Source: Bacteroidales bacterium (GTDB lineage: Bacteria > Bacteroidota > Bacteroidia > Bacteroidales > JAADGE01). From it: a stretch of 53,249 nt of DNA. Numbering within the stretch: position 1 is the first letter of the stretch; each line of letters opens with the position of its first letter. The stretch lies in assembly GCA_021108035.1 (NCBI GenBank), contig JAIORQ010000017.1, positions 1 to 53,249 on the forward strand, given 5' to 3'. The notes beneath the pieces are model-generated. The model saw only the letters and a program-made list of their open reading frames with translations, ran no database searches and had not been told where the DNA came from. A program made the translations under genes and the position numbers. Positions 9,039 to 50,594 of the stretch are shown here, piece by piece.

Positions 9039-9647
9039 TTATATAACATCAATAACCCTAGAATAATATTGATCATCTTGAATTATCCAAATTACTTCAT
9101 AACGTTCCTCCCCTTTTCCATTAAGCATATAAATATATACACGTCTTTTATCTTCTGACTGATATACTTTACAATCGCTTTTTATAGGTTTATTCCTTTT
9201 TGAATATTCATAACAAAAAACCGGATCATAAATATCATTGACAGCACTGTCAGGAAGTACAAAACCATATTTATACTTACCGTAATATATTGTTTTAATT
9301 CTTGATTTTTGATCAATATTTTCTGAAGAAATACCTACTACAATTTCATCAATATATATGTTCCCTTTTGAAAAGAAAGCAGTGCTGTCAGTACAACTTT
9401 TATGAGGTATTTTATTTACTTTTTTTTTAGCTATATATATAGAACTATCGGAAGATTTTAAATTGAAAAATGCAATTTCACTTTTTATTACACCGTCAGG
9501 CAGGTTTAAAAAGCTTTCATCTTTATTGTAAATAATTTTATTATCTTGATTTCTCTGTCCGTAACAAAATTGCTTACTAAAAGATGTTGAAATAACAGCA
9601 AAAATTATAATTATTAAAATCCTGTTTATTTGAATGTTTATTGTCAT
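9039..9647 (-). CDS. Exported protein, candidate immunity protein for the full-length RHS toxin
   Basis: I do not recognise a family. The 202-residue product has an N-terminal hydrophobic signal sequence (ILIIIIFAVISTSFS) with probable cleavage near FCYGQ. A mostly polar domain with several cysteines (KSCTDSTAFF, VFCYEYSK, SDCKVYQS) follows, which could form disulfides in the periplasm. It begins 11 bases after the stop of the intact RHS gene, the expected immunity position for the tip currently displayed. No independent evidence of function. Confidence 0.6.
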   Translation of the reverse strand: MTINIQINRILIIIIFAVISTSFSKQFCYGQRNQDNKIIYNKDESFLNLPDGVIKSEIAFFNLKSSDSSIYIAKKKVNKIPHKSCTDSTAFFSKGNIYIDEIVVGISSENIDQKSRIKTIYYGKYKYGFVLPDSAVNDIYDPVFCYEYSKRNKPIKSDCKVYQSEDKRRVYIYMLNGKGEERYEVIWIIQDDQYYSRVIDVI

Positions 9648-9658
9648 AATATTTAAGT

Positions 9659-12600
9659 CTAATTATAATCATTAATAAAATATGCCATATTATAAATTGT
9701 CATCTGTCTTGCAAACATTTCTGCATTTAACAGAAGCGGTGTAGTAACCGGCAAAAAAGCATTTATGTTTACCACACCTGAAAACAGAAGTGCTCTTGAA
9801 GTGTAATTTACGCACCCGTATAATAAACCATATTTCAAACGATTTGTATCAAAAAGATTTTGGACTTCAAAAAGTCGTTCTGTCATATTTGAAAGTATCT
9901 TGCCATTTACATTATTAAGTTTTACATTAGAATATTTACTCCAATAACGAAGTGAATTTTGACCTTCAACTGAGTGCCCTTGTAATGTTCTTTTTACATA
10001 TTCCATCTCCCATTTTAAGCCACCCTTGGCAGTACTCCCTATTGTACGGTCTTCAGGACCTACAGAAATTAAAATTTTCTTATAAACGGGATTATCTAAA
10101 TCATCATATTCGTAAAGATATTTACCCTCAACTTCGCTATGTCCTGCAATCTTCCATTTAGCCTTAACATCTACTGTTGTGCCATTAAAACCAGCAAAGA
10201 TATCTTGCACATTAGCTGATGCACCAACCACATACCCAGCATTTTCCATAAATGTATTATCTTTATATGCCCATATTCCGCTCCATTCATTCTGTGTTAT
10301 ATTATAAGAACCGGCACCAAACCCTACATTTACATCTGTCATACCGCTACTCAAGACTGCCATGCCGGTTGAATTCATATATGATCCTGCTACAATACTT
10401 GCAGTATTTGCCATAAAGCCACCAGCTGCTGCAAATTCAGCTGCAATACCGCCTGATACAGCACCTATCACTGCTCCTCCGGCTATATATCCTGCCATAC
10501 CCAAACCTGTAGCACCCATAGCTTTACCTATTTGATATCCTGAATATCCTCCGGCAACAGCACCAATAATAACCGGCATCCAAATAATTTCCCCATCCGG
10601 ATCAACATACTTCAACGGATTATTCAAAACATACGAATACCGATTAAAGTTTTGGGTAAAATCGGGCATTTGTATATAGTTGTCGGGGGAGAGCATGCGG
10701 CCGAGTATTGGGTCGTATAATCTTCCGTTCATGTTTATTAGGGCGAATTGGGGGAGCATTTCGTGGCCGGTATAGCCTCTGTCGTTAATAATCCCCCCAA
10801 CCCCCTTTGAAAAGGGGGAGTTTAGCAGCTCCCATGTTTCGGGGTTGCGTATTCTGCCCCATGCATCGAAGCTTTGTTCATGTTCATCAAAAAAGTTACC
10901 TTGGTCATCTGTTATGTGTGTTATTGAGCCGAGGTGGTCGGTGTAGGTGAAGAGCATTTCACCTACGCCGTCAACCTTTTTAAAAATCGCACCACCGGGT
11001 AAATAATTATATTCTGTTATTTCACCTGTTAAATTGTTTATTGTTTTTTCGTACGAACCGAAAAAGTATTTTGTTTGTGTAATATGTCCGTTTTCTTCTA
11101 ATACGGTTTTCTTTCTTTGATTGTTTAAGCCGTAGGTAAAGTATAATTTAATTCCGGGTATTGCTTTTATATCATTATTTTCGCTTATTTGTTTAACTTT
11201 GTTAAATGCTGTGTATGTAATACCTTGGTTATTTGAAGGTAAATATAGGTCTCCTTCAACTTGTGTTACTGCATGTATTTTATTTGCATCGTAGTTGTAT
11301 GTTCCGGCATCAGTCTTACTGCTTATATTACCTGTCGTATCATAATTTATTGTGTTTACAAGTGCAGGTGTATAGCCTTGCCATATTTTATGCAAGCGAT
11401 TATCATCGTATTCAAAACTTTCTTTATTGCTGTGTATTACATCTTCTCTGCTTAATAAATTTCCGGTTTCTTTTTCAAAATAATATTCAAAATGTTGAAA
11501 ATCGCCTGTTACAACAGCTTCAGGGCGATGATAGTCATCATAAGTTTTGTATGTTGTTATTTCGTTTACTCCTTTACAATATTGTGTAAGTTGTCCGAGA
11601 GCATTCATATCTTCTGCTTTCCAAATTAAATCTCCGTTATCTGCTCTGTTAATTTGTTCTAAATATCCGTTATCTGCCTTATAATGTTTTGTATAAGCAA
11701 AACCGGAAGGATATGTCATTCGGTTTATACGACTGAGATTATCGTAATTGTAGGAATATGTATAATCTTCGTTTTCAAATGTTTCTGTTACTGATGAGAG
11801 GCGGCTTAAGTTGTCGTATGTATAGACCTGCCTGTTGCCAACAGGCGTTACTTGTTCACTTGCAAGCATTCCCAAACCATTCAGAGCAACATCATAAACA
11901 TAAGTTGTTACTCCTTCGGGTCCTGATTTTTCTGTTAATCTGCCTGCTATGTCATATTCCATTTCATGCATATTTTGGTTTGCATCGGTTTGTTTTGTTA
12001 TATTTGAAAACGCATCATATTCATAATTTATTATACCGGCATCAGGGTCGGTGAGGCTTGTTTTATTACCGTAGTTATCATAAGCAATACTGACAACTGC
12101 ACCTCCCGGAGCTGTTATTGTCAAAGGTAAACCTGCAGAGTTGTAATCGTAGTTTATTTCGCCTCCGTTATCTTTGGCAATAACAACTTGTCCAAGGGAG
12201 TTTATTGTTTTTGAAGTTTGTTCTCCGTCGAATCCGGTTACTGTTGTTGTTTTACCTGTAAAATCGTATGATGTTGTACCTATTGGTGAAATTATGCTTG
12301 ATTGTCTGCCGTAATTATCATAATAAAACCATGTATAATTTCCGTCTTCACCTTCAAAATGAGGTTCATAAGTTTTATAAACATGTCCTTTGTTGCTGTA
12401 TCTAATAATTGATATTGTTTTTTCATTATTAAAACCGCTTGTTTCTGTTCTTATTTTTCTTCCGAGTTTATCGTAATATGTTGTTACCGGAGACACACCG
12501 TCAGCACTTACTGTTGAATATGTATGTGCATAAGTAATAATACCGCCCGGATACCAATTTATTGTTTGATATGCTTTTGTGCCGTCGGGCAGTTCGGTTT

Positions 12601-15600
12601 CAATAAGACTTCCGAATGCATTATATTTAAATTTTGTTATATGTCCGTTAATATCTGTTTCTGTTAAGATATTTCCGGTTTCTTCATCGTAGGTCTGTTC
12701 GCTTGTAAAACCGAGAGGGTCAGTTTGGTTAATTACAAAACGATTTTTGCTGTCGTATTCAAAATATGAGTCTTTATCTTCTTCATCCGGAGCAGAAACT
12801 TTTGTATGAGTTGTATTTCCGAAATTATTATACCAATATTCGCCGGTAATTGATTTATCATCGTTGGGGTCTTCTATGCTTTTTTTCAGAAATCCGTTGC
12901 TGTAATATTCAAATTCTGATGTTCTTGTATAAAGAGGTTTTCCTGTTGCTGTTTTTTTAATAATTGTTTTTTCCGGTTTTGTGGGCAACCAAGCACCTGC
13001 TGTTATATAATCTTGGTATAATGCTTCTGTATTGCCTTCATCGTCATAATTAATATAAGAACGTGTTAGATTTCCGTTGCTGTCATAATTAAAACTTGAA
13101 TTTATTGTTGTATTTGTTAAATGGTCTGTGCTTTCTGTTTCTTTGGGATATGTATAAATTCTTTTATCTCCCAAATGTTGGATATATTGATTTGTAACAG
13201 CACTTGATGAAATTAATGAATCTGTATTATAATAATATGTTCTTGTTGAAACAGGATATGTATTATAATAAGTAGTATTATAAATAAACTCTGTTTCGGA
13301 AAATATTTTATTTCTTGTATTTTCAGATGTAACTTTCATAAATCCGAGAAAACCTTTTCCTTGCCTGTGTATTTTCGCACTTTCGTATTTATAGTTTTGA
13401 GAAAGGAAACCTCCTACTCCGTCATTTGTATAAAGATTTTTCGTTACAAATAAAGCTCCTTGAAAATCTATTACAGGAAAATTTGCTCCACTGCCTTTTG
13501 TATAAACATCACTGCTTGTAATAGGTTTATATTCAAATTGAATTATATTATTGTAACCGTTAGTTATTGATTTTACAAGATTTTTTTGTTCGTGGGGGTG
13601 AAAGTAAATTACTTTCCTGTAATTAGTATAATGCCCTGTATTTAACAAACAGTCTTGTTTTCCGTCACCGTTAAAATCAGCATTAACTCTGAATTCTTGA
13701 ATATACGGATAAATATCTTCAATGTTATTTGCTTCTTTAATAAAAGAATTTCCTTGACTGTAAAAAATGTTAAATCTTGATTGATTTCCGCTTATATCAT
13801 ATTGTTCTAATACATCAGCTTTTCCGTCACCATTATAATCTGCAACAATATAATTATCATCATTATAAAATTGTTCCGGATCATTATTGTGATCAAAATT
13901 TATTTCCGGATTACCGGACCAAGCATAGGCATTGCCTTTTGAAAGATGTATTTCCCATGAAGCAGATTCACACCAAGTCAGAAGGTCAGATTTACCGTCA
14001 CCATTAAAATCTCCAGTGAATATACTATGCGCTTTAGTTGGGTATCCTCCGATGTAAAGTTCGTTTTCATGATAGCTTCCATCCTCAAGTTTTTCAATCT
14101 CTTTTATTCTACATGCATATCCATCCCATCTGTTATAAATAAACATTACATCTGATTTACCGTTTCCGTTAAAATCATTAACAACTACTTTTTTTATTAT
14201 GTTTCCTTCCGACGTAGAAGCAACTAATAAAGGATATGTGACATATTGCCAGTTCCAAGTTAAAATTTCATAATTACTTTTGTTACTTTTTTCTGTAACT
14301 ATAAGTATATCAGATTTACCGTCACCATTAAAATCAGCTATTTTAATTTCTCTTTTTTCGTAAGGGTTGTGGTCTTCAATATGAGCAAATAAATATTGAA
14401 AACTTTCACCTCTTGATCTTAACAAATAATAAAAGAATAAATCATCATCAGAATCATACCAAGCATATAAAATATCAGATTTTCCGTCACCGTTAAAATC
14501 AAGCGGATAACATTTAATATGACAATCTAAATCATGTTCTTCTTTTAAAATAAAGTTACCATTATTGTCAACAGTATAATATTGCCATTTTTCATATATT
14601 ACATTTCCGACTTCATCATACTGTAAGTATCCGTCTTCCAACAACTTAACTGCTACAAATAAATCTGTCTTTCCGTCACCGTTATAATCTCCGGGATAAT
14701 AATCATCAGCTCCTGTTATATTAATTTGGTCTAAATCATAGTTGTCTGTTTCATTTCCCCACTCAATTTTTGTAGTATTAATTGTTTTATTTTTGTCTTC
14801 ATAAAGTTGAATTTCGGAAAGACGGGAAAAAGAATTAAAATTATACTTAAATGTGTATTTTCGAATAAGATAATTGTTATTATAGATTTTAATGTCAGAT
14901 AACAAAACAGTATTTTTAAATTTAAAACCCTCAACATATGCAGAACTTTTATCGGTTTTACTTGTATAGAAAAATTTAACTGTGTTGTAGGACGACAGAC
15001 CGTTATCATTTTCTGTGTATTCAATTTGGAGAGGATAAAATTCGCCGTTTTCTTCTTTGTATGTAATTGTATAATAATTACCGAGAGCATCAGTAACTTT
15101 ATTTAGCAGATAATACATCACGAGATGTTCATATTGAGTTTGTATTCTGGAATCTTTGGTATAGCCATACTGCAAAGTCAATCCGGTTTTTGTTTTAACT
15201 TGAAACTCTGAAGGGCCATATCCTGTTTTATCGTATGATCTGACTTCTGAAAAATTTTCAATTTCGGTATGATAGACTTTTTCGTCCGGATATGATATAG
15301 TTTCAATAAGGCGTTGACCGTCTAAAGCAAAACGATCATTTTCATCAAAATCTACACCGTCAACCATATCATCGTGGTATAATGTAGAAGGGATTCTTGA
15401 TATTGCCGAAAAACCGCCTATTGTCCAACCTCTGCCCAACATTCCGTCGCCTGATTGGCTGTTGTAAACAATTGATAAACCGGGCATCATACCGGCTGTT
15501 CCGGGCGGTAATACAATCGGTATTTGATAAGTGGCTGCCCCGGTGGGGCTAACATTTACGCTTCCGGGCAAGCTGCCGACAGGTAAATTTGTACTGTGGG

Positions 15601-15862
15601 GAGTTTGTGTGCTTGTATAATTTGTATTAAAGATTAAATTTGGGTTGATTTTTCCGATAAACTTATTATCAACATCTGCCGTGTATTTAAAATCTTGCTT
15701 TAGTTTAATATAGTCACGAGCAATATAAGTATCATTTCTACCTGTATGATCTCCTCTCAATTCCCAATATTGACATATAAATGTAGCTTTATTATTTTGA
15801 GAAAAGCTTGTTAAGAAAAATATATTGAAAATGAGGATTGAAATAAATGTTAACTTTTTCAT
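9659..15862 (-). CDS. Giant SpvB/FG-GAP/RHS polymorphic toxin (fused Tc BC-like)
   Basis: A 2067-residue exported toxin-delivery protein. The start at 15862 is chosen because it gives a proper signal peptide (MKKLTFISILIFNIFFLTSFSQ); an upstream ATG adds 23 residues that spoil it. The order is: an SpvB/TcaC-type N-terminal domain from about 90 (GSVNVSPTGAATYQIPI, GMLGRGWTIGG), seven FG-GAP/VCBS calcium-binding repeats of form DxNGDGKxD at about 387-730, a TcdB mid-domain (SITNGYNNIIQFEYKPI), many RHS repeats (about 920-1600), and the RHS core ending NNPLKYVDPDGE at 1758. A 309-residue variable tip follows. The tip has a Gly/Ala-rich hydrophobic part, then His1963 (QGHSVEG) and Cys2017 (YGCVNYTSRAL), an order seen in permuted papain folds. 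The CCCCCTTT/AAAGGGGG palindrome at about 10801-10820 is read through in frame (LLNSPFSKGVGG). It heads a toxin-immunity array with two orphan tips downstream. Confidence 0.9.
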   Translation of the reverse strand: MKKLTFISILIFNIFFLTSFSQNNKATFICQYWELRGDHTGRNDTYIARDYIKLKQDFKYTADVDNKFIGKINPNLIFNTNYTSTQTPHSTNLPVGSLPGSVNVSPTGAATYQIPIVLPPGTAGMMPGLSIVYNSQSGDGMLGRGWTIGGFSAISRIPSTLYHDDMVDGVDFDENDRFALDGQRLIETISYPDEKVYHTEIENFSEVRSYDKTGYGPSEFQVKTKTGLTLQYGYTKDSRIQTQYEHLVMYYLLNKVTDALGNYYTITYKEENGEFYPLQIEYTENDNGLSSYNTVKFFYTSKTDKSSAYVEGFKFKNTVLLSDIKIYNNNYLIRKYTFKYNFNSFSRLSEIQLYEDKNKTINTTKIEWGNETDNYDLDQINITGADDYYPGDYNGDGKTDLFVAVKLLEDGYLQYDEVGNVIYEKWQYYTVDNNGNFILKEEHDLDCHIKCYPLDFNGDGKSDILYAWYDSDDDLFFYYLLRSRGESFQYLFAHIEDHNPYEKREIKIADFNGDGKSDILIVTEKSNKSNYEILTWNWQYVTYPLLVASTSEGNIIKKVVVNDFNGNGKSDVMFIYNRWDGYACRIKEIEKLEDGSYHENELYIGGYPTKAHSIFTGDFNGDGKSDLLTWCESASWEIHLSKGNAYAWSGNPEINFDHNNDPEQFYNDDNYIVADYNGDGKADVLEQYDISGNQSRFNIFYSQGNSFIKEANNIEDIYPYIQEFRVNADFNGDGKQDCLLNTGHYTNYRKVIYFHPHEQKNLVKSITNGYNNIIQFEYKPITSSDVYTKGSGANFPVIDFQGALFVTKNLYTNDGVGGFLSQNYKYESAKIHRQGKGFLGFMKVTSENTRNKIFSETEFIYNTTYYNTYPVSTRTYYYNTDSLISSSAVTNQYIQHLGDKRIYTYPKETESTDHLTNTTINSSFNYDSNGNLTRSYINYDDEGNTEALYQDYITAGAWLPTKPEKTIIKKTATGKPLYTRTSEFEYYSNGFLKKSIEDPNDDKSITGEYWYNNFGNTTHTKVSAPDEEDKDSYFEYDSKNRFVINQTDPLGFTSEQTYDEETGNILTETDINGHITKFKYNAFGSLIETELPDGTKAYQTINWYPGGIITYAHTYSTVSADGVSPVTTYYDKLGRKIRTETSGFNNEKTISIIRYSNKGHVYKTYEPHFEGEDGNYTWFYYDNYGRQSSIISPIGTTSYDFTGKTTTVTGFDGEQTSKTINSLGQVVIAKDNGGEINYDYNSAGLPLTITAPGGAVVSIAYDNYGNKTSLTDPDAGIINYEYDAFSNITKQTDANQNMHEMEYDIAGRLTEKSGPEGVTTYVYDVALNGLGMLASEQVTPVGNRQVYTYDNLSRLSSVTETFENEDYTYSYNYDNLSRINRMTYPSGFAYTKHYKADNGYLEQINRADNGDLIWKAEDMNALGQLTQYCKGVNEITTYKTYDDYHRPEAVVTGDFQHFEYYFEKETGNLLSREDVIHSNKESFEYDDNRLHKIWQGYTPALVNTINYDTTGNISSKTDAGTYNYDANKIHAVTQVEGDLYLPSNNQGITYTAFNKVKQISENNDIKAIPGIKLYFTYGLNNQRKKTVLEENGHITQTKYFFGSYEKTINNLTGEITEYNYLPGGAIFKKVDGVGEMLFTYTDHLGSITHITDDQGNFFDEHEQSFDAWGRIRNPETWELLNSPFSKGVGGIINDRGYTGHEMLPQFALINMNGRLYDPILGRMLSPDNYIQMPDFTQNFNRYSYVLNNPLKYVDPDGEIIWMPVIIGAVAGGYSGYQIGKAMGATGLGMAGYIAGGAVIGAVSGGIAAEFAAAGGFMANTASIVAGSYMNSTGMAVLSSGMTDVNVGFGAGSYNITQNEWSGIWAYKDNTFMENAGYVVGASANVQDIFAGFNGTTVDVKAKWKIAGHSEVEGKYLYEYDDLDNPVYKKILISVGPEDRTIGSTAKGGLKWEMEYVKRTLQGHSVEGQNSLRYWSKYSNVKLNNVNGKILSNMTERLFEVQNLFDTNRLKYGLLYGCVNYTSRALLFSGVVNINAFLPVTTPLLLNAEMFARQMTIYNMAYFINDYN

Positions 15863-16030
15863 GTGTCTTTTTTTATTGTTTTTAATTATCACATAGGAAC
15901 ACCTTATTAAGTATGTACAAGTAATTAACATTGTTTGTTAATCATGCTGTTTTGTGTAAAACTTGGTTCTCATGGGTGTTTCATAATTTATGCTGTTACT
16001 GAAAATTATAAACAAGTTGTCTATAATTTT

Positions 16031-39868: not shown

Positions 39869-40249
39869 ATGGAGAGTATTTATATTCAAAAAACAAAAAA
39901 AACTCCTTTAATTAATTTAAATATAAAAGATTCGATATTTCAGATAAAAGGTCCGTCATTTTCTGAAAATATTGTTGAAGTCCTGAACCCTATTATTGAT
40001 TGGATTGAAAATTGTATTCCGAATCTCGAAAATGAATTAATTTGCGAATTGTATTTTACTGTTTTAAACAGTGCTTCTCATAAAAAGATTTTTCAAATAC
40101 TGATAAAGTTAAATGCTTTTTTAGATAACGGAAAAGTTATAAAAGTTAAATGGTATTATGATGAAGATGATGAGGATATTATGGAAATGGGCGAAGATCT
40201 CGTTGAATTAATAAACATTCCGTTTGAATTAATACCTGTAAAATATTAA
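39869..40249 (+). CDS. SiaC-like (DUF1987) regulatory phosphoprotein
   Basis: The 126-residue protein fits the DUF1987/SiaC family: N-terminal KKTPLINLN, then IKGPSFSENIVEVLNPIIDWI, the NSASHKK segment, and the C-terminal WYYDEDDEDIMEMGED. In characterised SiaC a threonine in the NTxSSK segment is phosphorylated by SiaB and dephosphorylated by SiaA. Here Ser68 in LNSASHKK takes that place, as far as I can align by eye. The start at 39869 matches the family N-terminus and the promoter; an upstream ATG adds 21 residues. It is convergent with the SiaB-like gene, 8 bases apart, and is part of the inferred partner-switch system. Confidence 0.8.
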   Translation: MESIYIQKTKKTPLINLNIKDSIFQIKGPSFSENIVEVLNPIIDWIENCIPNLENELICELYFTVLNSASHKKIFQILIKLNAFLDNGKVIKVKWYYDEDDEDIMEMGEDLVELINIPFELIPVKY

Positions 40250-40257
40250 GGGCACTC

Positions 40258-41430
40258 CTAATTTTTATCAATAATTAACTGTATTATAAAATACGAAGTT
40301 TTTGAGTTAATCCTTTTAAACTTATAATAAATTAAACTTTTATTTTTCAGCCTCATATCTATCAAACTCAAATCCGGTTTGTTTTTTATATCGTATGCAA
40401 AAAATTGCTCTAAATAATCTTTTATCTTAATTAAACTTTTAAGATTCGTTTTATTCAAAATATTTATTTTATTGCCTAATATCAGAGCTTTAGTATTTGA
40501 TATTATATTACCGGCTGTCAATAACAATTTTTTGTCTTTTGTACTTAATAAATAAACCCCTCTGCTGTTCCCGAGATTTTCTGTTTCATCTTCCTGAAAT
40601 TCATCTGCAAAAGTTACAATATTTCGCAGCATTTTAACAGTAATGTCAAAAACCAATTGTTTAACATCTTTCCCTCCTATAGAATGAGATTCAATTATAG
40701 GTAATATACTTTCCAAATTTTCAAAAGCAAAAGAACCGTTAAAGTTTAATAAAATATTCTCTCTGTTTAATAAACTGTGAAATTTTGAGATTCGTTTTAT
40801 TGAAATAAGATCACTTTTAGGATCAGGGTCAAAATCTTCCTTTAAAGTTAATCTAATCTGAAAATAATAGTATGACCAATCGTTATTTATTTTTTTGAAA
40901 TTAAATTTTATTCTGCCGTCAGTCCTTCTGGCCATTGTAATAATACCCAGACCTCCTCCCCCTTTATCAGAAATCACTCCGTTCACTAATATCTTATGAT
41001 ATTCTTTCTTTAATTCTTTGGGAGACAGCTTTTTAATGGTATCCAGATATTTTTCTAATACAGGTATTTTTTCATTATTAATAACATTAGCTGTAGTTAA
41101 ATAAATAGAATCAGTAGTTTTTTGTATAACAAACAAACTTTCTCCGGAAAATTCTTCATCTATAGAAATATCATGATGTCTGATAACATTTTGTAAAGAC
41201 TCTATTAACAAATATGAAATTCGCTTTCTGCTGCTTACAGCATCTTCATCATTAATAAATTTAACTTCTGTTAATTTTAGAATATTTGATGTTATGCCGT
41301 CTGAAAAGTTACCTCTATATACATATTCGATATAATCCTCACTGACAGATTTAGTCATTTCAAATGCCAACTCCATTTGATTGGCATATTCACTAAGCTG
41401 AAGATTATCTATATTTGAATCTTTACTCAT
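40258..41430 (-). CDS. SiaB-like protein kinase (DUF6272) with a fused degenerate second copy
   Basis: The 390-residue cytosolic protein consists of two related halves. The first half (about 20-200) has the GHKL-type N-box in LIESLQNVIRHH and the G-box SDKGGGGLGIITMAR, as in SiaB kinases that phosphorylate SiaC. The second half (about 220-390) repeats the fold (FNGSFAFENLESI, VKMLRNIVTFADEF, YLLSTKDKKLLLTAGNII, FKRINSKTSYFIIQL). There the N-box Glu is replaced by Lys and the G-box glycines are gone (KNKPDLSLIDM), so it is likely a pseudokinase. It is the last gene of an operon with the MORN and PapD-like genes, 17 bases after the former. Confidence 0.75.
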   Translation of the reverse strand: MSKDSNIDNLQLSEYANQMELAFEMTKSVSEDYIEYVYRGNFSDGITSNILKLTEVKFINDEDAVSSRKRISYLLIESLQNVIRHHDISIDEEFSGESLFVIQKTTDSIYLTTANVINNEKIPVLEKYLDTIKKLSPKELKKEYHKILVNGVISDKGGGGLGIITMARRTDGRIKFNFKKINNDWSYYYFQIRLTLKEDFDPDPKSDLISIKRISKFHSLLNRENILLNFNGSFAFENLESILPIIESHSIGGKDVKQLVFDITVKMLRNIVTFADEFQEDETENLGNSRGVYLLSTKDKKLLLTAGNIISNTKALILGNKINILNKTNLKSLIKIKDYLEQFFAYDIKNKPDLSLIDMRLKNKSLIYYKFKRINSKTSYFIIQLIIDKN

Positions 41431-41447
41431 AATAATGAAATATAAAT

Positions 41448-42557
41448 TTAATCAATATTTTTAATATTGATAACTTCTCCGTTTTGATATTTTATTTTTT
41501 TTTCTTTCTTTCCTGTTTTATCAAAAATCTCCCAATCACCGGTTTTTTTATCATTTAAATAAACTCCTTCCTGACGAATTTGTCCGTTATCATGAAAAAA
41601 CTTCCAAGCTCCGGTTGATTTTCCGTTTTTAAATGACCCTTCTTGCTTAATTTTACCGTTAGGATAATAAACTTTCCACAACCCGCTGAACTCACCGCCG
41701 ATATAATTACCTTCAGAAAAAATACTGTCGTCGGGATAAAAAGACTTCCAATACCCTACTCTAATATCTTGAGAATATCCTCCGGATTCAGCAAGTGCAC
41801 CGTTTTTATGAAAAGATTTATACAATCCGTTCAAAATTCCGTCTGTATATTTATAATATGCCGACATTACTCCGGATTCATAATAAGCATAAAAGTCCCC
41901 GTTTAGTTCGGTATTTTTATAAAAACATTTTCTCTGTAAATTTCCTGATTTATAATATACATATAAAGTGTCAAAAAAAGCATCGCCTTCTTTCTTCCCG
42001 CTGTAGTTTAATTCACCGGTTTCATAAAACGACTCCCAAAGCCCTGTTAATTTGTTATTTGAATATGTATTAGTTTGTTCCCTTGTTCCGTTTTCTCTAA
42101 ATTTTTCAACTTTCCCGTTTAAAACACCGAGATAATACTCTCCTTTTACTTCAACATTTCCGTTCTCATAAAATGTTGTAACAATACCATGAGGCCGTCC
42201 GATCTTATATTCTCCGGATTGTTTTATATCGCCGCTTTCAAAAAAATGCTTAAACGGGCCGCTTCGCATGTTGTTAACAAAGAATATTTCAGATTTTATT
42301 GATCCGGTTTCGTAATATATTTTCCAAATACCTTGCAATAAATTATTTATATATTCTCCTTCTTGAATTATTGTTCCCGTTTTTGAAAAATATGAATATT
42401 TACCGTTTTTGAATGTATCAGTTTCAGTAATAAATGCATAATATTCCTCTTTAATACAATTTCCTGTATCAATATAATATGTTTTAATGACCTCTTGACC
42501 GAAAACATATACAGAGAAGCAAAATAAAAAAATAAATATTGCGATTTTTCTTATCAC
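41448..42557 (-). CDS. Exported MORN-repeat protein
   Basis: The 369-residue product has a signal peptide (MIRKIAIFIFLFCFSVYVFGQ). About a dozen MORN_2-type repeats of roughly 23 residues follow (pattern GxWKxYYxxGxIKxEGxYxNG; for example GLWKVYYPNGKIKQEGSFKNG split at its Gly). Such repeats form an elongated beta-hairpin ribbon and serve as structural or binding scaffolds; the precise role is unknown. Its ATG overlaps the stop of the PapD-like gene by 4 bases, so the two are translationally coupled, and the SiaB-like gene follows after 17 bases. Confidence 0.8.
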   Translation of the reverse strand: MIRKIAIFIFLFCFSVYVFGQEVIKTYYIDTGNCIKEEYYAFITETDTFKNGKYSYFSKTGTIIQEGEYINNLLQGIWKIYYETGSIKSEIFFVNNMRSGPFKHFFESGDIKQSGEYKIGRPHGIVTTFYENGNVEVKGEYYLGVLNGKVEKFRENGTREQTNTYSNNKLTGLWESFYETGELNYSGKKEGDAFFDTLYVYYKSGNLQRKCFYKNTELNGDFYAYYESGVMSAYYKYTDGILNGLYKSFHKNGALAESGGYSQDIRVGYWKSFYPDDSIFSEGNYIGGEFSGLWKVYYPNGKIKQEGSFKNGKSTGAWKFFHDNGQIRQEGVYLNDKKTGDWEIFDKTGKKEKKIKYQNGEVINIKNID

Positions 42558-43384
42558 TCTTTTTCTTCTTCTTTATCAAGTATTACTAATGTTTCTTTTA
42601 ATCTTGTACCTTTTATCGTAGTTTTTATTCCGTAATCTAATAAAGCAACTAAAGAATATTTACCCGAAGGTAATGTTTCAGGCAAAGTAAATTTTACTTC
42701 TCTCGGATATCCGGGAAATGATTCAATTAAAATCGGATCAAATTCAAATTCTTCTCCGGAATTTAAATCTGAAGCGATAAATATTACTTTACATTTTGTA
42801 ATTGCAGCTCCGGTGTTTTCAACAAATGCAGTAAATATTCGATCTTTACTTTCAGAATCATCTACTTCTTGAAGATGTTTAATATTCATTTTGGTTTCAT
42901 AATTAGTAACAGGCAGTCTGTAAATTTGTACAGCAATTCTTCCGGTCAAACTAACAGAAGCGCTTAACTCTTTATCTGCATCAAATCCTGTTTGGACACG
43001 TGCAGTTTGAATATACATAACTGCCCAACGTGCCGTGTAATCATCTTCAGGTGCCTGCATCGTAATCTTTATTGGAATCTGTTCATTCGGATTAATATCA
43101 AAAAATGTTTTTTCAGGAGTTATCCATTCTGTACATGAACTCTTAGAAGAATTTCGTTTCATTGATTGTTTATTTCCGTTTATATCAACTACAAAATCCT
43201 CAAAAGTAATTGTAAAAGGTGTTTTAAAATTGGAATGATTTGTAATAGAAAGTACTTCTGACTGAGATTCACCCGGATCAACCATAAAATACATTTTTAC
43301 CGGTGACACTTCAAAATCTTGTGCAAATAAAATTGCCGGAAAAAAAATTATTAGAAAAGTTAAAAATAAATTAATATTTCGCAT
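42554..43384 (-). CDS. PapD-like periplasmic chaperone or surface Ig-like protein
   Basis: The 276-residue exported product has a signal peptide (MRNINLFLTFLIIFFPAILFAQ). It is followed by an Ig-like N-terminal domain with FEVSPVKMYFMVDPGESQS and LSITNHSNFKTPFTI, and by FFDINPNEQIPIKITMQAP. This strand pattern is typical of PapD/COG3121 pilus chaperones and of DUF916-type proteins. A second beta domain (FTAFVENTGAAITKCKVIFI, LPSGKYSLVALLDYG) and an acidic end follow. Together with the subunit-like and barrel genes on the other side of the SiaA-like gene it suggests a chaperone-usher-type assembly. It is first gene of an operon with MORN and SiaB-like genes. No transmembrane C-terminus is seen. 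Confidence 0.65.
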   Translation of the reverse strand: MRNINLFLTFLIIFFPAILFAQDFEVSPVKMYFMVDPGESQSEVLSITNHSNFKTPFTITFEDFVVDINGNKQSMKRNSSKSSCTEWITPEKTFFDINPNEQIPIKITMQAPEDDYTARWAVMYIQTARVQTGFDADKELSASVSLTGRIAVQIYRLPVTNYETKMNIKHLQEVDDSESKDRIFTAFVENTGAAITKCKVIFIASDLNSGEEFEFDPILIESFPGYPREVKFTLPETLPSGKYSLVALLDYGIKTTIKGTRLKETLVILDKEEEKE

Positions 43385-43564
43385 ATTTTTACAGTTAATA
43401 AAAAAAATTAGGTTTTAATTTCCAAATTTAAAAATTATTTCTTAATTTACATAATTAATTAAATACAATATATTATAAAAAATTTGAAATAAAATTTCTT
43501 ATTGGTAAAATTCTCATTAATCTGCATAATTTTTGCAGTTTAGTTTTATGTATTTATTATTTAT

Positions 43565-43572
43565 TACTTTTG
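43565..43572 (+). promoter_or_regulatory. Promoter -7 element (TACTTTTG) of the SiaA-like operon
   Basis: TAnnTTTG match about 155 bases before the ATG at 43728, implying a long leader that contains the hairpin at 43623-43661. Confidence 0.5.
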
Positions 43573-43622
43573 CCGCATTCCTGCTTTCGTAAGACAGGGA
43601 ACAGCAAGTTAAAAAATAACTT

Positions 43623-43661
43623 CCTGTAAATAGGGATGATCTTTCCCTAACTTGTTACAGG
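43623..43661 (+). promoter_or_regulatory. Leader hairpin upstream of the SiaA-like gene
   Basis: CCTGTAA (43623-43629) pairs with TTACAGG (43655-43661), and inside it AGGGA pairs with TCCCT. It lies between the putative promoter and the start codon, so a role in mRNA stability or attenuation is possible. The gap 43385-43727 shows no other feature. Confidence 0.45.
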
Positions 43662-43727
43662 AAACTGTTAATTTGGATGTTAAGAATTATTTTAACTTGT
43701 TTGTTTTATTTTAAAAACACTAAAATT

Positions 43728-45653
43728 ATGAATAATTATAAATTTCATATTGTTCCTAAATTACTGTTAATAATAACGCTAATTTTTTTCAGTTCTTATT
43801 CTTTTTCTCAATTATCTGAAAAAGATCAAAAAAAATTAGATGAATTTCTTGAATCTGCTGCTGACTACACTAAAAATGAAGAAATTGAAAAAGCTGCTGT
43901 ATCTTATTATAAAGCGGGTATTTTTTGTATTGAAAAGAATAAAAATAAAGAAGCGATACCTTATATGAAAGAATCTGCTAAACTTTATGCTCAAATTAAG
44001 AATTATGAAAAAGTTATGAAGATATACAGTAATATCGGATTGCTGTTTGCAAACATTGATGATTATGATAAATCGCTGTTATATTTCCAAAGCAGTTTAA
44101 AAATAAGAAAAAATCTCGGTGAAGAAGCTCAAATTGCATCCGGATTATTAGACTTGGCTTATGTTTTATCTGTACAAAAAAAATATAAAGACGCAATATT
44201 AAATGTAATTAAAGCACTTGATATATCGTCTGAAATACAAAATTCTAAATTAATGTTGATCAGTTACAGAATGCTTGCCGAAAACTATCAAAAAATTGGA
44301 AATGAACAAAAAGCAGGTGAATATCTTAACAAATTTGTTTCATTCAGACAATATTATAAAAAAAATGTTACAGAAGAAATGGTAAGCGATGAGCGTGTAA
44401 AAACTATTGCCGAATTAAGCATTAAAGATGCAGAAGCAAGAGCAAAACAGTTGGAATACGAGTTAATGATGAAAGATAAAGAATTAGCAGAAGATACCTT
44501 AAAAAGTAAAATAAAAGCAAAAGAAGATTCTTTAGCAATATCAGAAGCAAGATTTTTAATGGCAAAAAGTGAAAAAGACCGCCTTGAAACAGAAAAAAAA
44601 TTGGCAAAAATTCAACAAGAACAAGACCAACTACAAGACCGAGCAAAACGAAGGCTGACATTTTCAATTTTTGCAGGTATAATTATAGTTATTGTATTAA
44701 TTTCTGTAGGATTATTACTTAATATTAGAAAAAGTAAGAAACACAATAAAATGCTTACTTCAACTAATAAAAAAATTGCTGAACAAAATAAAAATATTGA
44801 ATTGAAAAATGAAGAGCTTACTGATGCTTTTCAAAAAATTGATGAACAAAATAAGGACATTAACTCCAGTATTGATTATGCCGTAAATATTCAAAGTTCA
44901 CTATTACCTGCACAAGAAAATCTAAACAAATTTATTAAAGATTCTTTTATATTATTTAAACCGAGAGACAAAGTAAGTGGAGACTTCTATTGGTTTAAAG
45001 ATGCATATATTTCTAACGGAACAGGAGGTACTCACAGAAAAGTATATATATCGGCAATTGATTGTACCGGACACGGTGTTCCCGGTGCTTTTCTCTCAAT
45101 GATGAGTTATAACTTGTTGGACAATATAATTGACGAGAAACATGTTTATAAACCCGGAGAAATTTTAGACGAATTGCATAAAGGAGTAAGAAAAACTTTA
45201 AGACAAGAAGAAACTGCTAATCGAGACGGTATGGATATGGCATTATGCAGTTATGATCCCGAAAATAATATATTAGAATTTGCCGGAGCAAAAAACCCTT
45301 TAATCTATATGAAAGACGGCAAAATATATCGTTTAAAAGGAAATATTAAACCCATAGGAGGTATCATTCATCAAAAAAGTGAAGAAAAATATTTTAACAA
45401 TAATATAATTAAAATTGACAGCCCTACTACAGCTTATATGTTTTCTGACGGCTTTGCAGATCAAGTAGGAGAAGAAACCGGGCGTAAGCTCATGACCAAG
45501 TTTTTCAGGAACTTACTGGCAGAAATTCATGAAAAACCTATGGATGAACAACGAGAAATATTAGATTTATTTTTAAAAAAATGGCAAGGAAATACAGAAC
45601 AAATTGATGATATTATTGTTATAGGTTTCAAACTTTACCCAAATAAAATTTGA
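43728..45653 (+). CDS. TPR - transmembrane - SpoIIE/PP2C phosphatase (SiaA-like)
   Basis: A 641-residue signalling protein. The start at 43728 (MNNYKFHIVPKLLLIITLIFFSSYSFSQ) gives a signal peptide; an upstream ATG at 43677 adds 17 residues. Periplasmic TPRs (about 25-215) and a coiled coil precede one transmembrane helix (FAGIIIVIVLISVGLLL, about 314-331), then a second coiled coil. The cytosolic PP2C domain (about 400-641) has its metal-binding aspartates in SGDFYWFK, AIDCTGHGVPGAFLS, DGMDMAL, SDGFADQVG and DDIIVIGF. It is expected to dephosphorylate the SiaC-like protein in response to an envelope signal. It leads a run of four plus-strand genes to 50594. Confidence 0.85.
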   Translation: MNNYKFHIVPKLLLIITLIFFSSYSFSQLSEKDQKKLDEFLESAADYTKNEEIEKAAVSYYKAGIFCIEKNKNKEAIPYMKESAKLYAQIKNYEKVMKIYSNIGLLFANIDDYDKSLLYFQSSLKIRKNLGEEAQIASGLLDLAYVLSVQKKYKDAILNVIKALDISSEIQNSKLMLISYRMLAENYQKIGNEQKAGEYLNKFVSFRQYYKKNVTEEMVSDERVKTIAELSIKDAEARAKQLEYELMMKDKELAEDTLKSKIKAKEDSLAISEARFLMAKSEKDRLETEKKLAKIQQEQDQLQDRAKRRLTFSIFAGIIIVIVLISVGLLLNIRKSKKHNKMLTSTNKKIAEQNKNIELKNEELTDAFQKIDEQNKDINSSIDYAVNIQSSLLPAQENLNKFIKDSFILFKPRDKVSGDFYWFKDAYISNGTGGTHRKVYISAIDCTGHGVPGAFLSMMSYNLLDNIIDEKHVYKPGEILDELHKGVRKTLRQEETANRDGMDMALCSYDPENNILEFAGAKNPLIYMKDGKIYRLKGNIKPIGGIIHQKSEEKYFNNNIIKIDSPTTAYMFSDGFADQVGEETGRKLMTKFFRNLLAEIHEKPMDEQREILDLFLKKWQGNTEQIDDIIVIGFKLYPNKI

Positions 45654-45722
45654 TAATCAAATATTTATATATACTTTTACTTATTAATTCAGATTTTTTT
45701 AACTATTTAAAACTAAAGTATC

Positions 45723-46307
45723 ATGAAAAAACTAACTATTACTTTATTAGCAGTTATCTTTTCAATAGGAGCTGCTATTTCTCAGCCTATATCTGATATG
45801 GGTATTATACCTGTCGGTATAACTTTAAATTCAATATTAAGACTGAATATTACAAACGGCGGTAGTATTGAATATGTAGTTAATACAATGGACCAATATA
45901 CCAACGGTGTACCAAACGGACCTGAATATACTACCAGTTTTACAGTAGCTTCTTCTGTTGATTTTGATATTGATTTATCTACAGATGCTGCAGCATTTAC
46001 CGGAGTAGATAATGCCGCAGCTCCAAATACCATGGCTTTGGGTTATTTAGGTTATGGATTAACTTATGACGGTACAGGTGCAGCAGTTGATTATGCTTTT
46101 CTTCCTGCTATAGGTGCAGTAGCTCCTTTAGCAGCCGGTCCCGTTTCTATTATTACAGGTGGTGCCGGTGTTTCTGCAGGAGATATCAATAAAAATGCTT
46201 TTTCCATCTTATGGGAATTAGGTACTGTTAACACAACGAATCCGCTTCTCGGAATTACGTCTGACAGATATGTAGTTAACGTATTTCTTGAGTTACAAGG
46301 TAAATAA
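45723..46307 (+). CDS. Fimbrial-subunit-like secreted protein 1
   Basis: The 194-residue product has a signal peptide (MKKLTITLLAVIFSIGAAISQ). A small beta-rich domain follows with GGSIEYVVNTMDQYTNGV, low in charge and rich in Ala, Gly, Thr and Val, ending in DRYVVNVFLELQGK. The next-but-one element is a paralog with the same opening motif (GGSVNFYVNTFDKYQNGI). Size, composition and paired arrangement before a large barrel gene are as in chaperone-usher subunits, but I cannot place it in a named family. The final alternating hydrophobic strand could be the one presented to a chaperone. An mRNA hairpin follows its stop. Confidence 0.6.
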   Translation: MKKLTITLLAVIFSIGAAISQPISDMGIIPVGITLNSILRLNITNGGSIEYVVNTMDQYTNGVPNGPEYTTSFTVASSVDFDIDLSTDAAAFTGVDNAAAPNTMALGYLGYGLTYDGTGAAVDYAFLPAIGAVAPLAAGPVSIITGGAGVSAGDINKNAFSILWELGTVNTTNPLLGITSDRYVVNVFLELQGK

Positions 46308-46323
46308 TATATATATGTCAACT

Positions 46324-46356
46324 ATCCCAATTATTCAAATCAAGATTAATTGGGAT
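46324..46356 (+). other. Intercistronic hairpin between the two subunit-like genes
   Basis: Perfect 10-base-pair stem (ATCCCAATTA at 46324-46333, TAATTGGGAT at 46347-46356) with a 13-base loop and no following T-run, 16 bases after the first subunit stop. It could stabilise the upstream message or lower readthrough. Confidence 0.7.
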
Positions 46357-46403
46357 ATAACTATTTTTGAATATATATTTATTTATATAGTTATATTATA
46401 GCT

Positions 46404-46952
46404 ATGGTAAAATACTTGATTAGGATATTTATTGTTGTTGTTACTCTGTTAATTTTAAGATTGAGTATCCAAGGTCAACAAACTACCGCAAGATTAACGA
46501 TTAATTCCGGAGGCTCTGTTAATTTTTATGTTAATACATTTGATAAATATCAAAACGGTATTACTTATAATAATTGGACAACTGTTACAGTATATTTTAT
46601 TGACACTTTAGCCGGTGCCATACCAACCGGAATGCTTTGGAAATTAGATGTAAAAGCAATGGCCGGTAACATTAGCGGTACTCTCGGAAATTTGAACTTG
46701 AATACAGTTGAACTCGTTGCTACACACGGAGGGGGACCTGCTGCTACTTTCTCTCCTGTATTTGCATTAAGTGCAATAGATCAAAGTCTTGTAACTGCCG
46801 GTGCACAAACAAATGTTGCTGTTCCGGTTTTAACTACAGTAAATATTACATATCATTGCGGAAAAAGTATAACAGTTGCGGATAACTCCTTACTTGGGAA
46901 AATGCCTGATTATTATGCTGTTGATATACAATTAACACTTCGTGAAGATTAA
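46404..46952 (+). CDS. Fimbrial-subunit-like secreted protein 2
   Basis: The 182-residue product has a signal peptide (MVKYLIRIFIVVVTLLILRLSIQGQ) and a beta-rich domain paralogous to the preceding protein (GGSVNFYVNTFDKYQNGI, and a C-terminal YYAVDIQLTLRED strand). One or two cysteines are seen late in the domain (ITYHCGKSI). It lies 96 bases after the first subunit and 66 before the barrel gene, on the same strand. It may be a minor or tip subunit; this is inference from operon context. Confidence 0.6.
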   Translation: MVKYLIRIFIVVVTLLILRLSIQGQQTTARLTINSGGSVNFYVNTFDKYQNGITYNNWTTVTVYFIDTLAGAIPTGMLWKLDVKAMAGNISGTLGNLNLNTVELVATHGGGPAATFSPVFALSAIDQSLVTAGAQTNVAVPVLTTVNITYHCGKSITVADNSLLGKMPDYYAVDIQLTLRED

Positions 46953-47018
46953 CTTATTCCTAATCAGTTATTATATTATTGCTTAATCAATAATTATTAC
47001 AAATTATTAGGATTTTAA

Positions 47019-50000
47019 ATGGTAGTTTTGTTAAGATATTTGTTAATTTCTATTATCTTCATTATAATTAATACTGAAATTAAGGGTCAAACTGATTTCA
47101 GTAAGAATGATTTGGAAATTAGATTTTTTAAGGATAATGTGGAAATCAAACCGGGCAAATCCTTTTTCAATATACTTTCGATAAAAAACAAATCCGACAG
47201 AAACATTGAATTCAATGTTCAATTTAATACACCAAAGGGTTGGGAAATAATCGGAAATGCCTTTGAAAAATACTCCCTTCCGGCTCATGAAAATATCAAT
47301 CTTCCTGTAAGAGCAGCTGTTTCCAAGGATGCAAAAGGCGGAGTCGGATATGTAATAGTTGCATCTGTTACCGATAAAAAAGGGGCAACTGTTGCAACTG
47401 AATATAGTTTCTCAAATTTACCTGTTGAATCTGACGTTCAAGTAAAAACTTCCAAAAGTTCTTTATATTTCGATCATAAAGATTTGAGTTCTTCATTTAC
47501 TGTTAATTTTAATAATACCGGAAATATTGATGAAATTGTTAATGTTAAACTTGTTCCCGAGAATTCAATATCCGTTGAAGGTTCTCAAGATAATATACTT
47601 ATTGAAGATGTTACAGTTCCGGTTAGTGAGTCTAAGGAAGTTTCTTATAATATCAATCTTAAAGAGGATGTTGATTTTCAAAAATTTCAATTTCACAGAG
47701 TTAATCTTTTTTTCAATTTAACTGATACTGTGATTAATCGTACAGTTTGGTTCAAATATTTAGATTGGAAATTCGAAAATGTTTTTTCTAACAATGAAAA
47801 GCCTTTAAATCTTGAAGCTACTGCTTATAACCTTTTCAATAAAGGCAAAACTTTATATAGATTCAGAGTTTACGGGAAAATTCTTTTAAAGAATAAAAGA
47901 GACATCAGATATTCTTTTGAAAATATAAACAGGGACAGTTATAGTAATAGTTTATGGGTCAACAGTAGATTTCTTGTGCAATTAAATACACCCAAAACAA
48001 TGATATATATTGGTGATAATACAAGAAACTATGAACAGAATATGAATGGCAGAGGAATATCAATAGCTCAAAAGATCAAAAACAGAAGTGAGATTTCCGG
48101 TACTGTTACAAGAAGACTAACCCGAGATGTAAATAAGTTCGGAACTTCTTTCAATCATCGTTTTAAAATTCCTCTTTCTTTTGAATTGGGCGGAGCTTAT
48201 GTAGATGAACTTGATCAAAATATTAAATCCTATTTGGGCTATGGTGAAATCTCCGGAAAAGTTGCCAAAAACTATATATTTTCTATGTTATATGCAAACA
48301 GCCAAACAAATGATCAATCAAATAATTTGAATGAAACATACACCGGTTGGGGCTATCGTACTAATTTTATTAGTACTGTAAAAAAATTAAAATTGAGAGT
48401 ATCAAGTGAATATGGTTCTCCGAATTATACGGGATACACAAAAGGCAGATTTTTGTTAAACGGAACAGCTTCTATGCCTGTTTTTGAGAGAAGTAACATA
48501 CAAATGACATATTACAATCAAGCATACAGACCTTCATATAGGGTTAATGATATATATGTATCAGACAGATCAACAAAAAGTCAATTCCTGAATATTAGAT
48601 ATTTATCAAATATTATAAATAATGTCTTCTTATTCGCAGGTCCGGAAATTGAACAAAAAAGTACTAACAGTTATTTTTCCATGGCTCCGGAGAATCCTTT
48701 TTCTACATACTCCGCTAAGGGAGAAGTCGGTTTAATGGTTTTTCAGAAATATTCAGGCAATTCTGTTTCATTTTCCGGAAAATACGGATTCACTAATGTT
48801 TATCAATATCCGACTGAATTAAATGAAACACCTGCTACACTATTAGGAAATGACCAATTCAATATTGCTGAATTAACTTTCAACATGAAACGTAAATACT
48901 TTAATGTTAACCTTATTTACTATCACGGACCATATAGTATTTCTCAGGAGTTTGTCTATTTTTATACAAATTTCTTTTCAAGATCTCTCAATATTATGCC
49001 GACTTATGAAAGATTTTTATATAAAAAAGCTCTAAAAATGACATTAAGAGGGTCATATATTTACAATATCTCAACAAAAAATAACAGGATATATTTAAAT
49101 TCGAGTTTGGATTGGTATGCCAATAAAGGTTGGACTTTTAGATTTTTAAATACAACTTCATATCAAAAAACAAACAGTTCTTCAGATATTTCCTCTTATG
49201 CTACTACATATTTTGAATTTGCAATCAGAAAATCCTTTAACATTAATCAACCAAGATTAAAATACTTTAATTATAAAGCTGTATTTTACAAAGACCTCAA
49301 CGGAAACCGAAAACATGATGTAAATGAACCGGGTGTATCCCGAGTTTTATCTGATATTAAAAGAAATGATCCCATAAAGGATATCCAAGACCCAAACTAT
49401 AACGGAGAATTTATTAATAATGACCTTCTTTCAAATCAAGAAGGAAACATTGAATATATGAATATGCCCGAAGGCGAATATAAAATTAAATACACTCCTC
49501 AAAATATTAATTTGGGTACTTTTGAAACCGAAACCGTTGAGAAAGTTTTTCAAATCCACAGTGATACAGTAATGCATATCCCATTCCTTGAAAGAAATAA
49601 ACTTTTCGGAAAGGTAAATTTGAACAGAACAAAACATTCAGCTCTTGGTGAAATTCCTATTGATAATATCAAAATAACCGTAGAAGGAAATGAGAAAACT
49701 TATTCAAGCTTAACAGATAAAGCCGGTAATTTTGAGTTATATATCCCTGTTGCAGATTATTATAAAGTTAAAATTATAAATATTTTCAGAGAACATTTTA
49801 CATTAAGAAATGAATATTATATAGTAAAATTTAATGGTTATAAACATTTTGAATTAAGTTTTGACTTTGATGAAAAAGAAAGAACTATAGCTTTTGATGA
49901 AAGTGACTTCCTAATTGATGATGATGATGAAGTTGACGGTGATTTTACATTTGATGATATTAAAGTGATAAAGCAAACAAACTTAAAAGGAATAATAAAA

Positions 50001-50594
50001 GATGCTAACTCATTGATACCGATACATTCAACAATATCAGTATTTAACGGATCAGGAGAATTGATATCAGAAACAGCATCAAGTAACAGAACAGGGGTTT
50101 ATTTTACATCTTTCTTTGCAGGTGATAATTATTACTTAAAAGCTTATTCAAAAGGTTATTGGGTTTATACAGAAAATTTAAATATTCAGCAAGTTACAAC
50201 ATTTGAAAACATCAATCTTGATGTAATGTTAAAAAAGATAATCATAGATGAAGAAATAAAAGAGGATAAATTTAGATTTAAATCTGAAAGTGCTGAATTA
50301 ACACCTCTCGCTAAAGCCGAACTTGATAACATTTTGAAATTACTATTCTTAAATCCGAGTATTCATATAGAAATTTCAGGACATACTGATAATATTGAAA
50401 CATTACTTGTAAATGCTAAACAACTGTCCAAAGCCAGAGCTGGAGCTGTTGCTGCTTATTTGGTAAAAAACGGTATGAAAGAAAACCAAATAAAAATTAT
50501 AGCAAGGGGTAATTCTGACCCTAAAAGTAAAGAAGATTCTGAAGCCGGTCGGATACGTAACAGAAGAGTTGATATAAAAGTCGCAGGATTTTAA
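47019..50594 (+). CDS. Large outer-membrane barrel protein with Ig-like, SdrD-like and OmpA domains (usher-like)
   Basis: A 1191-residue protein with a signal peptide to about 24 (IIFIIINTEIKGQ). Residues 25-240 contain two Ig/CARDB-like domains (FFNILSIKNKSDRNIEFNVQ, FTVNFNNTGNIDEIVNV). About 250-745 is a long run of alternating aromatic amphipathic strands (LFAGPEIEQKS, FNVNLIYYHGPYSI), as in an outer-membrane beta-barrel. Then come an SdrD/Cna-B-like module (VFYKDLNGNRKHDVNEPGV), further beta-sandwich domains, an acidic stretch (about 961-980, IDDDDEVDGDF) and a carboxypeptidase-regulatory-like domain. A C-terminal OmpA domain (about 1084-1191, ISGHTDN, RIRNRRVDIKV) should tether it to peptidoglycan. 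Size and order suggest an usher-like export pore; barrel and usher role are inferred from composition and context. Confidence 0.6.
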   Translation: MVVLLRYLLISIIFIIINTEIKGQTDFSKNDLEIRFFKDNVEIKPGKSFFNILSIKNKSDRNIEFNVQFNTPKGWEIIGNAFEKYSLPAHENINLPVRAAVSKDAKGGVGYVIVASVTDKKGATVATEYSFSNLPVESDVQVKTSKSSLYFDHKDLSSSFTVNFNNTGNIDEIVNVKLVPENSISVEGSQDNILIEDVTVPVSESKEVSYNINLKEDVDFQKFQFHRVNLFFNLTDTVINRTVWFKYLDWKFENVFSNNEKPLNLEATAYNLFNKGKTLYRFRVYGKILLKNKRDIRYSFENINRDSYSNSLWVNSRFLVQLNTPKTMIYIGDNTRNYEQNMNGRGISIAQKIKNRSEISGTVTRRLTRDVNKFGTSFNHRFKIPLSFELGGAYVDELDQNIKSYLGYGEISGKVAKNYIFSMLYANSQTNDQSNNLNETYTGWGYRTNFISTVKKLKLRVSSEYGSPNYTGYTKGRFLLNGTASMPVFERSNIQMTYYNQAYRPSYRVNDIYVSDRSTKSQFLNIRYLSNIINNVFLFAGPEIEQKSTNSYFSMAPENPFSTYSAKGEVGLMVFQKYSGNSVSFSGKYGFTNVYQYPTELNETPATLLGNDQFNIAELTFNMKRKYFNVNLIYYHGPYSISQEFVYFYTNFFSRSLNIMPTYERFLYKKALKMTLRGSYIYNISTKNNRIYLNSSLDWYANKGWTFRFLNTTSYQKTNSSSDISSYATTYFEFAIRKSFNINQPRLKYFNYKAVFYKDLNGNRKHDVNEPGVSRVLSDIKRNDPIKDIQDPNYNGEFINNDLLSNQEGNIEYMNMPEGEYKIKYTPQNINLGTFETETVEKVFQIHSDTVMHIPFLERNKLFGKVNLNRTKHSALGEIPIDNIKITVEGNEKTYSSLTDKAGNFELYIPVADYYKVKIINIFREHFTLRNEYYIVKFNGYKHFELSFDFDEKERTIAFDESDFLIDDDDEVDGDFTFDDIKVIKQTNLKGIIKDANSLIPIHSTISVFNGSGELISETASSNRTGVYFTSFFAGDNYYLKAYSKGYWVYTENLNIQQVTTFENINLDVMLKKIIIDEEIKEDKFRFKSESAELTPLAKAELDNILKLLFLNPSIHIEISGHTDNIETLLVNAKQLSKARAGAVAAYLVKNGMKENQIKIIARGNSDPKSKEDSEAGRIRNRRVDIKVAGF

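Follow-up and report, generated by a model that had tools for sequence, protein, structure and literature searches.

FimD, the usher of a classical chaperone-usher pilus, is a 24-stranded barrel with an inserted plug, and the Type V (Fim/Mfa) pili are built from lipoprotein subunits. According to PMC10599100, the WxLIP protein consists of two immunoglobulin (Ig)-like domains, mostly predicted to be perpendicular, which bind WxL, and carries a C-terminal transmembrane helix. In Pseudomonas, the regulator SiaC is described as phosphorylated at Thr68 within LNTSS (PMC7647112), and unphosphorylated SiaC as activating the cyclase SiaD until phosphorylation stops the activation (PMC8457831). Here, an eight-gene locus was analyzed in the window, the 53,249-nucleotide contig C17 (JAIORQ010000017.1) of a Bacteroidales bacterium, whose 4.96-Mb draft genome of 116 contigs is 95% complete. 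The locus rather likely encodes a divergent machine of chaperone-usher-like type for building a surface fibre, with an adjoining SiaABC-type switch. Its features are as follows.

39869..40249, plus strand: SiaC-family (DUF1987) regulatory protein (PF09345, E=5.5e-31; motif LNSAS, Ser68)
40258..41430, minus strand: SiaB-family kinase with two DUF6272 domains (PF19788, 3.5e-42; second stretch, 1.3e-13; NF038262, 160 bits, cut-off 85)
41448..42557, minus strand: exported MORN_2-repeat protein, accessory (MORN_2, 7.8e-40, 10 stretches; N-terminal hydrophobic segment)
42554..43384, minus strand: probable periplasmic chaperone of the WxLIP/PapD superfamily (hhalign against WxLIP, 91.9%)
43385..43727, no strand: divergent intergenic region between the operons (alignment with four relatives)
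43728..45653, plus strand: SpoIIE/PP2C phosphatase with tetratricopeptide repeats (TPRs) (SpoIIE, 1.7e-16; two hydrophobic segments)
45723..46307, plus strand: subunit 1, secreted beta-sandwich protein whose N-terminal segment is a candidate donor strand
46404..46952, plus strand: subunit 2, a subunit 1 paralogue that has no such N-terminal segment, candidate end (tip) subunit (hhalign, 99.2%; spacing 8-12)
47019..50594, plus strand: outer-membrane barrel protein of 1191 amino acids (AF2 model, VIA, Pfam)

An open reading frame (ORF) check of the window showed that all eight genes are open and intact where the sequence-only reading of this DNA had placed them, and their families were confirmed by Pfam and NF models. 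The SiaC gene is followed by the SiaB, MORN and chaperone genes on the minus strand and then, divergently, by the phosphatase, subunit 1, subunit 2 and barrel genes on the plus strand. The 17-bp gap between the SiaB and MORN genes, the 4-bp overlap of the MORN and chaperone genes and the second, divergent operon were found as that reading had claimed; the plus-strand gaps are 69 bp (phosphatase to subunit 1), 96 bp (between the subunits) and 66 bp (subunit 2 to barrel). Two details of the operon claim were amended. The SiaC gene is convergent with the kinase gene across an 8-bp gap and is a member of neither operon, and the start of the phosphatase gene is more probably the ATG at 43728 (residue 18 in the originally listed ORF), judging by the start in a near relative (L107).

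Conservation of the gene order in relatives had been set beforehand as a test of the proposal, and the order was kept in the family. Searching with the full 1191-residue barrel gave 142 of 296 phylum genomes, but the matches listed outside the own genome covered a common C-terminal part from residue 951. Because this search was misleading, a trimmed profile (residues 1-985) was adopted, which matched 19 of 40 genomes, namely the own genome, 12 of 13 other genomes from its genus, 2 of 7 from its family and 4 of 19 from its order. A scan of species genomes yielded 22 loci, 21 of them from records without a named isolate strain; the remaining one belongs to the isolate Perlabentimonas gracilis, whose contig L160 carries the phosphatase gene, both subunit genes and the barrel gene. 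The synteny table comprised 25 loci and the window. The eight-gene order was also found in two further genera within the family, so the grouping is far more than chance. Among the family loci, SiaB adjoins MORN in all 11 whose contig reaches that far (window included; one truncated by the end of its contig); SiaC adjoins SiaB in 8 of 10, the exceptions being two genus members, L113 and L114. In L114, a weak SiaC-like gene was seen beside the barrel gene instead. Of the 10 loci outside the family, 7 have the phosphatase gene at the head of the subunit genes, in partial form in L122; SiaC is located 1.4 kb (L157) or 1.8 kb (L166) past the barrel, and subunit 2 was not recognised in L163. From these linkage counts inside and outside the family, the phosphatase is the wider partner, and the kinase with SiaC a family trait.

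The window chaperone gave weak Pfam matches only (best WxLIP_PGBD, 0.005; 17.2 bits, cut-off 27.3), with no match to PapD_N in the same search, and two relatives exceeded the WxLIP cut-offs (L127, 27.8 bits; L135, HBD at 36.2 over 28.9). The window clade and the wider chaperones formed one family (hhalign, 100%, E=1.5e-43). Profile A9 (18 rows) matched the solved PDB chain EfmWxLIP1 (E=5e-9, positions 39-260 of 266). It scored 98.1% (E=1.3e-13) against WxLIP proteins from six lactic-acid bacterial sequences, with which the window clade by itself reached 91.9%. The wide set scored 93.6% or 81.8% against FimC, SfmC, YehC, YadV and EcpB, depending on the alignment, and reversed-profile controls in the chaperone pairs gave at most 0.4%. 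The window protein is a probable periplasmic chaperone related to WxLIP and PapD, nearer to WxLIP. It has an N-terminal hydrophobic segment and no C-terminal one.

Chaperone relatives were detected in 26 of the 296 phylum genomes with profile A1 (2 rows) and in 60 with A9. Twenty chaperone regions were fetched and the chaperone ORF was recovered in 18 of them (not in L142 and L144). A large ORF of at least 850 amino acids was located within 4.5 kb in 14 of the 18; the four loci with no such partner in that range, L137-L140, all belong to family f18. Small genes for secreted proteins accompany the chaperone in many wider loci, reaching a tandem row of five in L134. A Deinococcus deserti plasmid holds a trio of small protein, chaperone and large protein (hmmsearch, 2e-32, 1.4e-40 and 1.9e-14, respectively), the first value not being independent because the subunit profile contained the Deinococcus protein itself. 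The chaperone homologue on D. deserti plasmid 2 (L176/L191) is annotated as a 'FimB/Mfa2 family fimbrial subunit', apparently a misnomer.

A beta-barrel had been expected at residues 250-745 of the large protein, and the AF2 model predicted one of 26 strands at 263-740 (counted by hand from the DSSP elements), between an Ig-like part (32-250) and beta domains (749-952). The modelled barrel has no plug insertion, its longest loop being 18 residues, and the C-terminus carries CarboxypepD_reg (4.9e-7) followed by OmpA (3.9e-19, about 1080-1190) by Pfam. The usher domain PF00577 gave no match in this protein at E<=1 and exceeded its cut-off in none of the 296 phylum genomes, with three matches below it. 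Since the usher domain and the plug were looked for and not found, the machine would be a variant of the chaperone-usher kind outside the classical family. The barrels could not be linked to FimD-type ushers with hhalign (A3, 0.2%; wide set, 40.8% or 0.4% by alignment), and one wide barrel set gave 40.4% with EcpC alone. In family f24 (L185-L187 and L189), the chaperone gene lies beside genes for four proteins of 994-1455 amino acids, three of which show PF00577 similarity below the threshold. With the wide barrels these proteins have a C-terminal part in common (98.2% for A8 and 96.9% for a second alignment), but their scores were 1.2% with K-12 ushers and 0.3% with A3 (reversed control for A3, 5.2%); they are possibly nearer to true ushers.

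Neither subunit matched Pfam. Their proposed paralogy was confirmed (hhalign, 99.2%, E=3e-19; reversed control, 0.2%), and both the alignment and the model showed an N-terminal segment without secondary structure on subunit 1 that subunit 2 does not have. The predicted fold of subunit 1 was nearest to TLP-1/TLP-2 (PDB 9ikj and 9ikk, 16-chain cryo-EM entries) and next, weakly, resembled donor-strand pilins. The fold and the N-terminal motif of the TLP subunits were both found in the subunit comparison; the motif was not found in the phylum sample or in plasmids, and the literature search returned no paper on TLP-1/TLP-2. Subunit 1 has no cysteine and subunit 2 has one, and among the aligned sequences only subunit 2 of L157 has a cysteine near the signal end. 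Against a 'small WxL' set of six proteins, three annotated as WxL and three taken by position, subunit 1 alone scored 1.3%, subunit 2 alone 2.6% and the wide subunit set 83% (68.8-86.6% in 15 leave-one-out runs), with the alternative alignment A10 giving 45% over 16 columns. Trp164-x-Leu of subunit 1 was considered as a possible mark of a WxL domain, which remained an idea.

Ser68 in the LNSAS motif of the window SiaC aligns with Pseudomonas Thr68, and Ser or Thr occupies this position in all 22 aligned sequences (19 of the own genome and 3 of relatives); by alignment, the protein is a SiaC-family member with a candidate phospho-acceptor. The first DUF6272 domain of the kinase contains ESLQNVIRHH (77) and DKGGGGLGI (155), which we take to be N-box-like and G-box-like, respectively, and the second looks degenerate. 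The kinase exceeded the cut-off of the subfamily model NF038262 and did not reach the equivalog NF038264 (62.6 of 225 bits). In the phosphatase, an N-terminal hydrophobic segment (5-23) is followed by the TPRs, a second hydrophobic segment (305-323) and the PP2C domain, with the motifs DCTGHG, DGMD, FSDG and QIDD, which we presume to be PP2C-like (numbering from base 43731); this order suggests that the TPRs are periplasmic. Its score against the SiaA equivalog model was 196.9 bits (cut-off 700), over residues 355-653 only. GGDEF (PF00990) gave no match in the 95% complete genome, and the same search was positive in 8 of 14 control genomes. Consequently, the output of SiaC must differ from that in Pseudomonas, unless a cyclase lies in the missing 5%. 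Elsewhere in the genome, contig C33 was seen to carry a two-domain SiaB gene followed by three tandem SiaC genes, and on C55 SiaB, SiaB and SiaC are naturally fused in one protein of 512 amino acids (regions L057, 5576-7959, and L060, 7792-9330).

As judged from these families, folds and signal segments, the two beta-sandwich subunits would be exported by Sec, held in the periplasm by the WxLIP/PapD-type chaperone and passed to the predicted 26-stranded outer-membrane barrel, the N-terminal Ig-like domains of which probably receive the chaperone-subunit complex, with the OmpA domain tying the barrel to peptidoglycan. Subunit 1 would polymerise through its N-terminal segment, donated to the adjacent subunit, and subunit 2, which has no such segment, would end the fibre, probably at the tip. 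The TPR-SpoIIE phosphatase may read the periplasm, the SiaB kinase may phosphorylate SiaC on Ser68, and dephosphorylated SiaC may bind a partner that promotes assembly or expression. Because no GGDEF match was found, this partner is probably not a diguanylate cyclase.

Several results weigh against a fibre machine under such control. In the fold comparison, ushers tied with other barrels, some of which were as good or better, so that the barrel is no more than a candidate usher; the window clade of the chaperone alone gave only 3.5% against the FimC group. For the switch, SiaB lies beside MORN in none of the four loci outside the family that reach far enough (L124, L157, L159 and L163), L123, L124 and L167 are without the phosphatase, and the genome shows a large SiaC expansion, with 19 SiaC matches and 11 DUF6272 stretches spread over many contexts. 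Contig C58 (1490-9104; L050) carries the assembly genes a second time, headed by a DUF4842/DUF4114 protein and comprising a subunit-like protein, a chaperone, a MORN relative and a barrel that has no OmpA; Sia genes are absent there, and the assembly genes thus recur without the switch. The many contexts, the C58 copy and the loci without the phosphatase would suit Sia genes and a phosphatase that are mere neighbours serving a general stress or envelope response, an explanation that is possible though somewhat doubtful, as the SiaB-MORN linkage throughout the reachable family loci and the leading position of the phosphatase outside the family speak for a connection. SiaABC control of the fibre machine is a plausible reading based on gene position. 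The surface-assembly half of the sequence-only reading is supported by the chaperone family, the barrel prediction, the subunit fold and the gene order, and its control half is weaker, with SiaB linkage confined to the family, SpoIIE linkage in most loci outside it and no GGDEF match.

If the subunits were not extruded, they might form a coat on the envelope or anchor it, in the way that WxL proteins bind peptidoglycan and WxLIP, with the OmpA-bearing barrel as an outer-membrane clamp. The relation of the chaperone to WxLIP, that of the wide subunit set to small WxL and the OmpA domain itself would fit such a coat, but the nearest folds of subunit 1 are 16-chain cryo-EM entries, its N-terminal segment has no secondary structure, the subunit and barrel genes stay together, and the WxL domain PF13731 was found in none of 118 phylum genomes, the own included; we regard the coat as unlikely. 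An MtrB-like conduit for electron transfer or another periplasmic partner is very improbable, since no CXXCH motif occurs in the eight proteins or in the kept window ORFs of at least 100 amino acids and the neighbours of the barrel gene encode a chaperone relative and beta-sandwich subunits.

Between the operons, an A/T-rich block adjoining the chaperone gene is common to the window and the four aligned relatives. The Bacteroidota promoter pattern, -33/-7, was not found in this interval. An inverted repeat (43621-43663; fold z-score of -3.6 for 43600-43680) lies within an insertion of about 150 bp 5' of the phosphatase gene that is not present in the four relatives, one of them nearly identical to the window, and its pattern occurs once in the genome. 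Apart from the locus, the region 4897-15931 of the window encodes, on the minus strand, a large protein of 2090 amino acids, presumably RHS/YD-repeat-like, and, downstream of it, shorter partial copies with the same end region and different C-termini.

More tentatively, the locus may represent a separate chaperone-usher-like class, found in many Bacteroidota as well as on a plasmid of Deinococcus. This class would have its WxLIP-type chaperone, and perhaps WxL-type subunits, in common with the surface system of Gram-positive bacteria built on WxL. No description of this variant was found in searches of one open-access library that does not hold preprints. As the usher family passed its cut-off in none of the 296 genomes and the chaperone family was found in 60, a class of fibre machines may be missed by annotation. 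If true, diderm fibres and monoderm WxL complexes would be branches of one ancient assembly system, one branch being controlled here by a SiaABC phospho-switch whose output is not cyclic di-GMP. This would give an indication of how many of these bacteria make fibres, would connect the Gram-positive WxL system to pilus-like assembly, and poses the question of what SiaC binds where no diguanylate cyclase is found.

Compared with known systems, the locus differs from the MtrAB conduit in having no CXXCH, and so no multihaem cytochrome partner there, and from the Type V (Fim/Mfa) pili in that the cysteine content of its subunits does not mark them as lipoproteins. It has the phosphatase, kinase and SiaC families and the phospho-site position in common with SiaABCD of Pseudomonas aeruginosa, whereas the TPR sensor, the two-domain kinase and the genome without a GGDEF match set it apart. 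With the classical chaperone-usher pili (FimC/FimD/FimA, PapD/PapC and Csu) it shares the chaperone superfamily, a large barrel followed by beta domains, and beta-sandwich subunits of which one bears an N-terminal segment; its chaperone, however, is nearer to WxLIP, its subunits have no Pfam family, and its barrel is missed by the Pfam usher model and has 26 strands, no plug insertion, an N-terminal Ig-like part and an OmpA domain. Unlike the WxL/WxLIP system of Gram-positive bacteria (DUF916/DUF3324), it has a chaperone without the C-terminal hydrophobic segment, an added outer-membrane barrel and no PF13731 detected in its phylum sample. The two chaperones are nevertheless related over nearly the whole length, and a small gene precedes WxLIP in five of the six fetched loci (annotated as WxL in two of the five; WxLIP comes first in L177), just as the subunit genes precede the chaperone gene in many Bacteroidota loci.

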